A stretch of DNA of 35,640 nt from Oscillospiraceae bacterium (GTDB lineage: Bacteria; Bacillota; Clostridia; Oscillospirales; Oscillospiraceae). The position numbers were made by a program, and so were the translations under genes. Below are positions 14,348 to 17,250 of the stretch, piece after piece. Below the pieces are notes generated by a model. It worked only from the letters and a program-made list of their open reading frames with translations, was not told where the DNA came from and made no database searches. The stretch lies in the NCBI GenBank assembly GCA_902761635.1, contig CACWLG010000047.1, forward strand, positions 1 through 35,640, read 5' to 3'. Each line of letters begins with the position of its first letter. Within the stretch, counting starts at the first letter, position 1.

Positions 14348-14382
14348 CTGTCGCGCCCTGCTTGACAGTCGGGGCGCGACAG
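14348..14382. promoter_or_regulatory. perfect inverted repeat over the metNIQ promoter
   Basis: CTGTCGCGCCC (14348-14358) and GGGCGCGACAG (14372-14382), an 11/11 inverted repeat with a 13-base centre. The -35 hexamer lies in the centre and the right arm fills the spacer. This is the arrangement of a repressor operator; no T-run follows, so it is not a terminator. Confidence 0.6.
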
Positions 14383-14391
14383 GTCTATAAT
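14362..14391 (+). promoter_or_regulatory. promoter of the metNIQ leader transcript
   Basis: TTGACA (14362-14367), 18 bases, TATAAT (14386-14391): both hexamers are perfect consensus. Start of transcription is expected near 14398, about 26 bases before the leader peptide ATG. Confidence 0.85.
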
Positions 14392-14423
14392 GCACGCATA
14401 CTCAAGGAAGGGGCAAAGTCACC

Positions 14424-14528
14424 ATGCGTCGTTTCGCTGCTGTCAACTGCATGATGATGGAGATGTACATGTGCGGCATGTGCAAGATGATGCACGCCCA
14501 AAACTCTCCGTGTTCTCTTTCTGCTTGA
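14424..14528 (+). CDS. methionine-rich leader peptide upstream of metN
   Basis: A 34-codon frame, ATG at 14424 and TGA at 14526-14528, with AAGGAAGGGG as ribosome site ten bases upstream. Residues 9-23 read CMMMEMYMCGMCKMM: 8 Met in 14 residues (10-23), plus three Cys in 9-20 and a His at 24. Met is normally about 2-3% of residues, so this density is striking. The stop lies 20 bases before the base of an intrinsic terminator stem, and metN follows. I read it as the sensing peptide of a ribosome-mediated attenuator: low charged tRNA-Met stalls the ribosome on the Met codons and allows read-through into the methionine transporter. The alternative is a Met/Cys/His-rich metal-binding peptide, which the terminator and the metN context make less likely. 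Confidence 0.82.
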   Translation: MRRFAAVNCMMMEMYMCGMCKMMHAQNSPCSLSA

Positions 14529-14560
14529 TCGCATACACGCGTTTCAATCAGGTTCGGAAA
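14518..14560 (+). promoter_or_regulatory. candidate antiterminator pairing in the metNIQ leader
   Basis: TTTCTGCTTGAT (14518-14529), which includes the leader stop codon, can pair with ATCAGGT-(TC)-GGAAA (14547-14560): seven pairs, a two-base bulge, then five pairs, with three G-U pairs in all. This uses up the left arm of the terminator. A ribosome at the stop codon would cover 14518-14529 and free the terminator; one stalled at the Met codons (up to 14492) would not. Drawn by eye, energies not calculated. Confidence 0.5.
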
Positions 14561-14593
14561 ACGATGGGAGTTTTTCCGGACCTGTTTTTGTTT
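14549..14593 (+). terminator. intrinsic terminator between leader peptide and metN (attenuator)
   Basis: CAGGTTCGGAAAA (14549-14561) pairs with TTTTCCGGACCTG (14572-14584) over 13 positions with a single G-U pair, ten-base loop, followed directly by TTTTTGTTT. It stands between its own promoter and metN with no other promoter seen after it, so it must be passed to express metNIQ. Confidence 0.85.
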
Positions 14594-14637
14594 CATGCCA
14601 TCGCTTATTTGGAGATATGAGAGGATAGAATGAATAG

Positions 14638-15627
14638 ATGATTGAGATAAAGAATCTTTGCAAGACCTATTCTTCCGCCTCCGGGGATGTGGAAGCGCTG
14701 CGCGACATCAACCTCACGATCGAGGACGGGGAGATTTTCGGCATCATCGGCCTGTCCGGCGCCGGCAAGAGCACCCTGGTCCGCTGCATCAACCTTCTGG
14801 AGCGGCCCACCTCCGGCAGTGTCATCATCGACGAACAGGACATCACCGTCCTCCCCCGGCCGGAGCTTTTGAAAATGCGCCGCAGCATTTCGATGATCTT
14901 CCAGGGCTTCAATCTGCTCGAGCAGCGCAGTGTCCTGCGCAATGTCACCTTCCCGCTGGAGATTTCCGGGGTGAAGGGACAGGCCGCAAAGCAGAAGGCC
15001 ATGGAGCTTTTGAAGGTCGTCGGACTTGAAGAGAAGGCGGCGGCCTATCCCGCGCAGCTTTCCGGCGGACAGAAGCAGCGTGTCGCCATTGCGCGCGCCC
15101 TCGCCTCCGATCCGCGCTACCTGCTGTGTGACGAGGCCACCTCAGCCCTCGACCCGAACACCACCCGTTCTATCCTGGAGCTGCTGCGCAGCATCAATGA
15201 GAAGATGGGCGTAACGATCATCGTCATCACCCACGAGATGAAGGTCATCGACCAGATCTGCGACCGGGTGGCCGTCATCGACCAGAGCCGCATCGCAGAA
15301 TCCGGCAAGGTGAGTGACGTGTTTGCCAATCCCCAGTCCCAGATCGCGCGCGAGCTGATCCTCCCGCAGGACCGCACCGCCATTGAGACCAGCGGTGGCA
15401 AGAAAATCCGCATCATCTTCGACGGCATGCAGTCCAAGGAGCCGGTCATCTCCAACATGACGCTCGACTGCCAGGTACCGGTCAACATCATGTTCGCCGA
15501 CACAAAGGACTTTGACGGCATCGTTTACGGACACATGATCATCGAGCTGCCCACCGATGCGCATCAGGCCGAGAAGGTCATCGCCTGGCTTAAAAACAGC
15601 GACGTCAAGTGGAAGGAGGAAGACTGA
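14638..15627 (+). CDS. metN: methionine ABC transporter, ATP-binding protein MetN
   Basis: 329 residues. ABC ATPase with Walker A GLSGAGKST (about 38-46), Q-loop, signature LSGGQKQRVAIARAL, Walker B YLLCDEATSALD and H-loop ITHE. Residues about 255-329 form the C-terminal NIL/ACT-like domain that binds methionine and inhibits transport when the cell is replete, which is the mark of MetN rather than other ABC ATPases. The N-terminus MIEIKNLCKTY is canonical for MetN. AGAGGA lies about 12 bases upstream, a little far. Stop overlaps the metI start by one base. Confidence 0.95.
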   Translation: MIEIKNLCKTYSSASGDVEALRDINLTIEDGEIFGIIGLSGAGKSTLVRCINLLERPTSGSVIIDEQDITVLPRPELLKMRRSISMIFQGFNLLEQRSVLRNVTFPLEISGVKGQAAKQKAMELLKVVGLEEKAAAYPAQLSGGQKQRVAIARALASDPRYLLCDEATSALDPNTTRSILELLRSINEKMGVTIIVITHEMKVIDQICDRVAVIDQSRIAESGKVSDVFANPQSQIARELILPQDRTAIETSGGKKIRIIFDGMQSKEPVISNMTLDCQVPVNIMFADTKDFDGIVYGHMIIELPTDAHQAEKVIAWLKNSDVKWKEED

Positions 15628-16307
15628 TGCTCTCCGAAACCTTTTACAAGCTCTGGAATGCCGGCATCCTGCAGCGCGGCGTCTGGGAGACGATCTACAT
15701 GACCGTCATTTCCACGGCGATCTCCTATGTGATCGGCCTGCCGCTCGGCGTGGTGCTGAACATCACGGACCGGGAGGGTATTTATCCCATCCCCTGGTTC
15801 AACCGTCTGCTCGGTATGATCGTCAATTTTTTCCGTTCGATTCCCTTTATTATCCTGATGGTTGCCATGCTTCCGGTGGCAAACTTTATTGTAGGCACCT
15901 CGCTCGGCAACAAGGCCATGATCGTCATGCTGGTCATCGCGGCCTCGCCCTATATTGCGCGCATGGTGGAATCCTCCCTCAAGGAGGTCAACGCCGGCGT
16001 CATTGAAGCGGCCCAGTCCATGGGAGCCAACAATTTCCAGATCGTGACCAAGGTCCTGCTGCCGGAGGCCAAGCCCTCGCTCATCATGGGCGCCGTGATC
16101 TCCATGGTGACGATTCTCGGCTACTCGGCCATGTCCGCCACCATCGGCGGCACCGGCCTCGGCCAGATTGCCATCAGCTACGGCCACCAGCGCTTCAATC
16201 CCGATATCAAGTGGATCTGTGTATTTCTGACTGTAATAATCGTTCAGATTATTCAGGAGGTGGGGACTGCCGTTGCGCACCGCACCGATAAACGCATCAC
16301 CAAGTAA
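15627..16307 (+). CDS. metI: methionine ABC transporter, permease MetI
   Basis: 226 residues, five hydrophobic segments, with the permease EAA-loop EAAQSMGANNFQIVTKVLLPEA and the N-terminal ETIYMTVISTAISYVIGLPLG typical of MetI. Start chosen at 15627 because GGAGGA precedes it and its ATG shares one base with the metN stop (TGATG), which implies translational coupling. It forms the membrane channel with MetN. Confidence 0.95.
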   Translation: MLSETFYKLWNAGILQRGVWETIYMTVISTAISYVIGLPLGVVLNITDREGIYPIPWFNRLLGMIVNFFRSIPFIILMVAMLPVANFIVGTSLGNKAMIVMLVIAASPYIARMVESSLKEVNAGVIEAAQSMGANNFQIVTKVLLPEAKPSLIMGAVISMVTILGYSAMSATIGGTGLGQIAISYGHQRFNPDIKWICVFLTVIIVQIIQEVGTAVAHRTDKRITK

Positions 16308-16338
16308 ACCCAAATCTTCAAAAAAGGAGAACATGAAC

Positions 16339-17250
16339 ATGAAAAGAAATCTCGCTTTGATCCTTGTCCTCGCGCTTGTGGTCCTGAGCCTGAGCGCCTG
16401 CGGCGGCTCCTCCTCCGCACCGGCTGCCACCGCAGCACCCACGGAAGCTCCCGCCACGGAAGCTCCCGCCACCGAAGCTCCTGCTGCCACTGAGGCTCCC
16501 GCTGCCGCCGAGCCCGTAAAGCTCGTTGTCGGCGCAAGCTCCACCCCCCACGGCGAACTGCTTGAGATCGTCAAGCCTGTTCTTGCCCAGCAGAACATCG
16601 ACCTTGAAATCGTCATTTACGACGACTATGTGCTGCCCAACACCGCTCTGCAGGACGGCACCCTGGACGCAAACTACTTCCAGCATGCCCCCTATATGAA
16701 CAGCTTCAACGCCTCCAACGGCACGGATCTCGTCTCTGCCGGTCTCGTCCACTATGAGCCCATGGGCATCTACAGCTCCAGCCTCAAGGACCTCAAGGAC
16801 CTGGCTGCAGGCGCCACCATCCTGGTGCCCGATGACGAGTCCAACCAGACCCGCGCCCTGCTCCTGCTGCAGCAGGAGGGCCTGATCGTCCTGCCCGAGG
16901 GTGCCTCTGTTGACACCGCCCCCTCCGTGCTCGACATCAAGGACGCCAAGGGCTACAATGTCCAGGCCGCCCAGGCTGACGCTGTCCCCTCCCTGCTGGC
17001 CAACAGCGCTGAGGGCACCATCGCCGTCATCAACTACAACTACGCCCTGAACGCCGGCTTCAAGACCACCGACGCTCTGGCCATCGAGGACGCCTCCGGC
17101 AATGCCGCCCAGACCTATGCAAACCTCGTGGCCGTCCGCCGCGGTGATGAGTCCCGCCCCGAGATCGTCGCCCTGGTCAAGGCCCTGCAGGACGGCGCGG
17201 TCGATACCTTCAACGCCAACACCGGCGCCGGCATCGTCGCCATCAAGTAA
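16339..17250 (+). CDS. metQ: methionine-binding lipoprotein MetQ (NlpA family)
   Basis: About 303 residues. A lipoprotein signal ends LVVLSLSAC (lipobox, Cys acylated), then a flexible Ala/Thr/Pro linker made of near-identical repeats of ATEAP units (coded by ACGGAAGCTCCCGCC repeats, 16441-16505), then the NlpA fold: VVGASSTPHGELLEIVKP, DYVLPNTALQDGTLDANYFQH, GIYSSSLKDL. Two ATGs are possible (16333, 16339); AAGGAG is nine bases before 16339 and only three before 16333, so I take 16339. It captures methionine outside the membrane and hands it to MetNI. Confidence 0.93.
   Translation: MKRNLALILVLALVVLSLSACGGSSSAPAATAAPTEAPATEAPATEAPAATEAPAAAEPVKLVVGASSTPHGELLEIVKPVLAQQNIDLEIVIYDDYVLPNTALQDGTLDANYFQHAPYMNSFNASNGTDLVSAGLVHYEPMGIYSSSLKDLKDLAAGATILVPDDESNQTRALLLLQQEGLIVLPEGASVDTAPSVLDIKDAKGYNVQAAQADAVPSLLANSAEGTIAVINYNYALNAGFKTTDALAIEDASGNAAQTYANLVAVRRGDESRPEIVALVKALQDGAVDTFNANTGAGIVAIK

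Follow-up and report, generated by a model that had tools for sequence, protein, structure and literature searches.

Leader-peptide attenuators of the trp, his, thr and ilv type combine a short reading frame rich in cognate codons with an intrinsic terminator, an antiterminator and a 1:2 helix. Methionine genes of Firmicutes are mostly regarded as controlled by S-box and T-box RNAs, of which the T-box binds tRNA directly. Among Firmicutes, attenuators with His leaders have been predicted for the Bacillus cereus group, Eubacteriales and Erysipelotrichales (PMC9413887), leader-peptide attenuators that take the place of a T-box are described upstream of hisS paralogs in bacilli (PMC2965389), and further attenuators are reported at Listeria rli60 and Staphylococcus aureus ilv (PMC5864092, PMC5794164). 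For metNIQ, the open-licence PMC literature yielded one earlier case, metL of Streptomyces lividans, a leader predicted from RNA-seq (PMC8079986), and no description of the leader family presented here. According to that report, metL encodes 29 amino acids with two internal Met, has a leaderless start and showed no typical intrinsic terminator (PMC8079986). For actinobacterial genomes, another study reported that no conserved RNA structure precedes methionine operons (PMC1262725).

We analyzed a 35,640-nt stretch (the window; contig C47 of genome G000, which comprises 176 contigs and is 85.8% complete) from a rumen Oscillospiraceae bacterium and found a Met-rich leader frame, a promoter and a terminator directly before metN-metI-metQ (Table 1). 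The locus resembles the trp, his, thr and ilv attenuators in its codon-rich leader frame, intrinsic terminator, antiterminator and third, 1:2 helix (the his case also being described in PMC9413887) but would read Met, which has a single codon that is also the start codon, would control an importer and lies in Oscillospiraceae. The His, hisS, rli60 and ilv systems of Firmicutes are likewise leader-peptide attenuators but serve other amino acids and biosynthetic or synthetase genes. With metL, the window shares the target operon and a short Met- and Cys-bearing leader; the window has an intrinsic terminator, a typical one not having been found at metL, and the passages on metL contain no comparative or regulatory test (PMC8079986). 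The preliminary description of this DNA knew of no described case for metNIQ; the S. lividans prediction, without a typical terminator, is such a case (PMC8079986).

Table 1 Leader features and metNIQ genes in window coordinates
Feature	Position	Strand	Basis or remarks
Sigma-A-type promoter	14362-14391	+	-35 TTGACA 14362-14367, -10 TATAAT 14386-14391, spacer 18; 12/12 consensus matches
Leader Shine-Dalgarno-like purine run AAGGAAGGGG	14404-14413	+	Sequence
Leader peptide ORF, 34 codons, MRRFAAVNCMMMEMYMCGMCKMMHAQNSPCSLSA	14424-14528	+	8 Met and 4 Cys; member of conserved family A1
Met/Cys codon block, codons 10-23, predicted ribosome stalling place	14451-14492	+	Leader comparison, Met-window counts
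Strand 1, codons Met12-Glu13-Met14	14458-14463	+	Pairs with 14518-14523; coordinates read by hand from alignment register
Antiterminator conserved 5' strand, AACTCTCCGT + TTCT	14502-14516	+	Final leader codons; register scan, covariation
Inner strand 2	14518-14529	+	Partner is strand 1 or 14547-14560 (pairing of the preliminary description); sequence
Terminator 5' arm (strand 3)	14549-14562	+	Common to antiterminator; fold, covariation
GGGAGTT, terminator loop and start of 3' arm	14566-14572	+	Antiterminator partner of 14502-14508
Terminator 3' arm (14570-14584) and T-run TTTTTGTTT (14585-14593)	14570-14593	+	Sequence, fold, covariation
metN, ATPase with NIL domain	14638-15627	+	TIGR02314, 365 bits (cut-off 499.7); PF09383
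metI, permease	15609-16307	+	NF008049, 210.9 bits (cut-off 212)
metQ, lipoprotein	16339-17250	+	NF008285, 123.1 bits (cut-off 374); PF03180; start picked by eye in ORF 16273-17250

The promoter, leader and terminator lie between a GDSL-type gene and metN. For all three operon genes, the top NCBIfam matches were methionine-transporter models, each under its NCBI curated cut-off, and the expected Pfam domains were present. The closest metN (99% identical) came from Ruminococcaceae bacterium RUG13571 in the metN relative search, and the window lineage consists mostly of gut and rumen genomes titled Ruminococcaceae or Oscillospiraceae at NCBI. The preliminary description had named perfect promoter hexamers, a 34-codon frame with a ribosome site and eight Met within residues 10-23 (positions 10, 11, 12, 14, 16, 19, 22 and 23), a terminator with a T-run at 14549-14593 and a downstream methionine transporter operon, all of which were recovered here. 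The Shine-Dalgarno-like site scored -7.7 against an anti-Shine-Dalgarno sequence. Upstream of 68 leaders, a -35/-10 pair was found 48 times at a spacing of 17-18 (first-match search) and 61 times with a looser pattern allowing 16-18, both being raw counts. A consensus terminator scan of the window returned none, the simple scanner having overlooked the terminator, and the whole-leader fold energy under plain folding was unremarkable (z = -0.48), so the evidence for the window leader is comparative. Around the -35 box, an inverted repeat with 11-nt arms, CTGTCGCGCCC and GGGCGCGACAG, spans 14350-14384; its letters differ in close relatives while complementarity is kept, and it occurs at 7 of the 68 leader loci (L115, L122, L128, L129, L132, L133 and L143, the last being the window). 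A possible small hairpin, GTGCA...TGCAC, lies within the Met block at 14481-14497. As judged by eye, many but not all relatives have a CGC, CAC or TGC codon following the Met run, which would preserve this pairing.

Leader conservation was assessed across metN relatives. A small Met-rich ORF, defined by 5 or more Met in 16 codons, lies within 500 nt upstream of metN in 49 of 80 such loci. Sixteen-codon windows containing 7 or more Met numbered 43 in the 500 nt before metN and 2 elsewhere in these loci (1.25 Mb, both strands), the two representing one hydrophobic stretch present in two loci; the Met-rich frame before metN thus exceeds chance. With a threshold of E ≤ 1e-3, a profile, A1, built from 33 leaders of the window lineage produced 60 matches, some of them its own rows, spread over 57 of the 101 genomes of the genus. 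All but one precede metN or metQ, and the exception (G017:C35) is cut by a contig end. Directly downstream of 49 matches lies a metN match with E ≤ 1e-80; eight more precede metN and two (G082 and G120) precede metQ in metQ-metN-metI operons. The eight comprise five on a second metNIQ type (G117, G094, G111, G064 and G106) and three read in frame (G025, G032 and G028), of which the G028 locus groups with the second type in the MetN tree. This type was model-checked on L124 and L139, with other members assigned by sequence likeness. The tallies overlap, since 34 of 50 genus-genome loci checked share sequence with named metN loci. The second-type MetQ looks circularly permuted (L124:3452-4384 and L139:1673-2575): against the MetQ profile, its first half aligns with the C-terminal region and its second half with the N-terminal region. 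On one contig (L123, G117:C4:62500-74500), two metNIQ operons occur with leaders about 4.5 kb apart, each having its own Met leader; next downstream of the first is an M20-type amidohydrolase, named by likeness to L124.

Beyond the genus, A1 matched only the window's genome at E ≤ 0.01 in samples of the order (295 genomes) and class (391 genomes), which overlap and both include that genome, so the leader sequence family looks confined to near genus level. Divergent Met-rich leaders before met operons occurred in other genera at 10 of 29 family-level loci (loose cut-off; L190 doubtful), with a T-box at 6 and neither at 13. These leaders have mainly Met richness in common with A1, in which RAQK and SPC are also conserved. 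In more distant Clostridia (L078, L079, L065, L068 and L071), shorter or different Met-rich ORFs precede metN, each with a hairpin-like stretch and T-run downstream as seen by eye, possibly of separate origins. The Met/Cys-rich composition would also suit a genuine small protein, for example, a metal-binding one, that precedes metNIQ by coincidence. We regard this as very improbable, because a terminator separates the small ORF from metN, the C terminus is variable and sometimes absent, no family match was obtained and the ORF follows metNIQ copies into tandem and metQ-first operons.

Hairpin and helix tests were based on leader contexts with at least 7 Met in 16 codons, with weaker leaders (for example, L014, L065, L078 and L176) outside the set. 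A hairpin and T-run follow the leader stop in 68 of 69 contexts (raw count, no shuffle control), the remaining one being contig-cut. Alignment A2 retained 49 of 68 rows after removal of seven contexts from other genera, the contig-cut L126 and near-duplicate rows (93% alike or more); A3 (45 rows) additionally omits L012, L136, L138 and L139. Over the 49 rows, 92.7% of terminator cells were paired, with 103 double-changed cells against a shuffled mean of 29.3 and changes on both sides in 11 of 12 pairs. When all 2,701 four-pair registers of this alignment were scored, none preselected, the top ten belonged to the terminator, while ranks 11, 12, 14 and 15 (CTCG/CGAG, GCTC/GAGC, TCGC/GCGA and TTTC/GGGA) traced an antiterminator joining the final leader codons to the terminator loop and 5' arm, mutually exclusive with the terminator. 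Little covariation was seen at rank 13, a terminator slip, and at rank 16, TCTG/CGGG. The 13-pair antiterminator had 73.8% of cells paired (28-56% in slid registers) and 43 double-changed cells against 23.4 in shuffles; for its outer six pairs, the values were 87.2% (22-50%) and 33 against 10.6. Of five measures, the test software rates two as least misled by relatedness, both-side-changed pairs and further pair types. For the 13 pairs, neither showed an excess (8 and 23, with 292 and 388 of 500 shuffles as high), and for the outer six pairs the excess was weak (93 and 28 of 500). Because these two measures fail the shuffles, part of the antiterminator covariation may reflect few events in large clades.

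In the window, the antiterminator comprises 14502-14508/14566-14572, 14509-14511/14561-14563 and 14513-14516/14556-14559. The preliminary description had proposed 14518-14529/14547-14560; a covarying alternative pairing does exist, but that proposal captures one inner register here, the conserved core being 14502-14516/14556-14572. In RNA up to 14572, the antiterminator reaches -23.1 kcal/mol, against -18.6 kcal/mol for the terminator alone (arms 14549-14562/14570-14584), and the complete segment 14503-14593 adopts the terminator fold (-24.2 kcal/mol). A best-duplex swap test between leader end and terminator arm was not significant (2,140 of 20,000 permutations as good; 5 of 47 sequences beat shuffles at 0.05); taking the best duplex from any place within about 55 nt makes this test too permissive. 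A stalled-state test gave p ≤ 0.05 for leader:arm pairs in 24 of 47 sequences and for energy in 14 of 47; the window itself had p = 0.34 for pair count, and 0 of 100 shuffles matched its low energy.

A third helix, overlooked by the earlier two-helix account, emerged from a scan of 21,115 registers from the -10 region onward and joins the codon after the first Met run to the leader end (14458-14463/14518-14523 in the window). With codons in register over 45 rows, 80.8% of cells were paired, compared to at most 75.0% in 1,000 swaps and at most 58.7% in other registers. Compensatory examples include GGT/ATCC, GAG/CTCC, GAA/TTCC and GCT/AGCC. The window version is weak, with six pairs of which three are G-U. 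The helices are mutually exclusive in the order 1:2, 2:3, 3:4, and, judged by sequence, the layout of promoter, leader and helices 1:2, 2:3 and 3:4 is that of a trp/his-type attenuator. Relatives thus retain, upstream of metN, the Met-rich frame together with the terminator and a covarying alternative pairing, and these comparative tests lend support to the preliminary description's interpretation of a Met attenuator before metNIQ. Covarying helices would also be expected of an aptamer or riboswitch binding methionine or SAM, with the Met-rich frame incidental. T-box (RF00230) and all other Rfam families were unmatched in the window and at 17 leader loci, and the window gave no covariance-model match to the SAM riboswitch (RF00162), in agreement with the earlier remark that neither S-box nor T-box is seen at the locus. 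The helices are short competing hairpins with no junction, no feature is as constant as the Met codons and a Shine-Dalgarno-like site precedes the frame, all of which makes such an RNA highly improbable.

Leader geometry was considered with respect to a stalled ribosome. In 48 of 68 leaders, the best leader-end/arm duplex starts 17-24 nt beyond the final Met codon, a distance that lies just outside the downstream footprint of a stalled ribosome; in the window it is 15 nt. This distance is preserved in four early-stopping leaders (L128, L129, L132 and L133), which end upstream of the antiterminator strand, such that a ribosome at their stop codon would cover the strand only partly. RNAs up to the terminator loop were folded for 47 non-redundant sequences with an assumed footprint, the ribosome being represented as unpaired bases only. 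With the ribosome placed on the first four block codons, 9.6-9.9 antiterminator pairs remained, and with the ribosome at the stop codon 2.9; the two states differed by more than 2 pairs in 39 of 47 sequences under this footprint; the window had 13.7 and 3.3 pairs, respectively. Untranslated RNA averaged 8.7 pairs, so helix 1:2 alone leaves the antiterminator open in these folds. In full-length equilibrium folds, the terminator had more pairs in all four ribosome states for 23 of the 24 leaders listed, the window being the exception, and the expected shift appeared in 29 of 68 leaders. With a stall on the first Met codon, the equilibrium fold of the window favored the terminator (11.5 versus 3.2 pairs). 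As equilibrium folds with the full terminator favor termination, the switch would have to be kinetic; known attenuators likewise depend on timing.

The explanation we favor, with a probability of roughly 0.9, is ribosome-mediated transcription attenuation of metNIQ, in which the leader senses charged elongator tRNA-Met. From the arrangement of codons and helices, we infer ribosome stalling, antitermination and a methionine response as follows. Transcription would start at the strong promoter and a ribosome would begin on the 34-codon leader. With methionine plentiful, the ribosome would pass the Met codons, reach the leader stop and mask the antiterminator 5' strand; the terminator would then form and RNA synthesis would stop near 14590. 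With methionine scarce, it would stall at Met codons within codons 10-19, masking strand 1 and exposing 14502-14529. This segment would pair with the terminator loop and 5' arm once these are made, so that the terminator would come too late and metNIQ would be transcribed.

Conservation of the non-Met residues RAQK and SPC raises the alternative that the leader peptide itself arrests the ribosome on free methionine or SAM, following the model of TnaC, a nascent peptide that stalls its ribosome in response to tryptophan. The SPC/SPCF codons, however, sit in the covarying antiterminator strand, and the L128, L129, L132 and L133 leaders stop before them while the pairing continues past their stop codons. 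What leaders of other genera have in common is mainly their Met richness, and arrest at high methionine would presumably induce uptake, the wrong sign for an importer. We therefore hold peptide-specific arrest to be very unlikely and retain the codon-reading attenuator.

Loci that lack the leader were inspected for other devices. A T-box precedes metN at 6 of 30 leaderless loci scanned; L036, where the contig starts 55 nt before metN, stands outside these 30. In the genus set, 11 of 19 leaderless metN loci have a T-box, one of them (L218) under the Rfam gathering score, and four of these T-box loci are the same contigs as in the 30-locus set. The others comprise one with a divergent Met-rich leader (L208) and seven with neither device, one at a contig end. 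At the presumed specifier place within the T-box motif, AUG is present in all 20 distinct metN-linked T-boxes (four from alignments, the rest by pattern). At seven further loci (L183-L186, L188, L192 and L195), T-box motifs were not within 1.9 kb before metN, and all seven have AUG at the specifier place. The AUG T-box (RF00230) has the same target and the same inferred signal as the leader and also acts by attenuation, but without a leader frame. The presence of AUG-specifier T-boxes upstream of metN, within the window's own genus and family, supports the attenuator reading. Elsewhere, the window's genome has 10 T-box matches and two SAM riboswitches, one of which lies upstream of an ORF that resembles metK by eye; it thus possesses both other devices, although not at metNIQ.

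The T-box data also bear on which amino acid is read. A Cys-rich composition, located at 14448-14515 in the window, is a further trait of the A1 leaders: in the 33 leaders, Cys accounts for 9.1% of residues and Met for 26.2%, whereas window proteins have 1.4% and 2.7%, respectively. Conservation of Cys20 reaches at least 90%, and the Streptomyces metL peptide alternates Cys and Met as well (PMC8079986). In a variant of the attenuator, stalling on either Met or Cys codons of one block could make metNIQ answer a shortage of either amino acid. Cys codons are fewer and mostly TGC (162 TGC, 29 TGT), which could serve RNA pairing in the block, and the T-boxes at the leader's place read AUG; we view joint sensing as the less likely option.

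A quick MetN tree of 125 rows, with SH-aLRT support only, placed T-box locus L050 within a leader clade (96, starred) and leader loci L009 and L135 within a T-box clade (100, starred). It implies at least five changes between leader and T-box with rows labelled neither left out. Labels came from patterns, and two loci with a T-box by Rfam (L080 and L198) as well as two with a leader before metQ (L138 and L139) received the label none. We consider it likely that Oscillospiraceae contain an attenuator family that reads Met, perhaps Cys, codons before metNIQ and that this family and the AUG T-box replaced each other more than once on orthologous operons in one genus, so that RNA devices of two unrelated kinds, serving a single signal, would have been swapped as modules.

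An attenuator that reads Met codons and has covarying helices would add an amino acid for which we found one earlier leader-peptide prediction. Since AUG serves as start and control codon alike, the question arises of how a Met leader separates initiator from elongator tRNA-Met. The unexpected part of the finding is the exchange of the leader with the AUG T-box in one genus, whose members seem to have swapped devices. Such an exchange would amount to a natural experiment in which regulatory RNAs are replaced while target and signal stay fixed.
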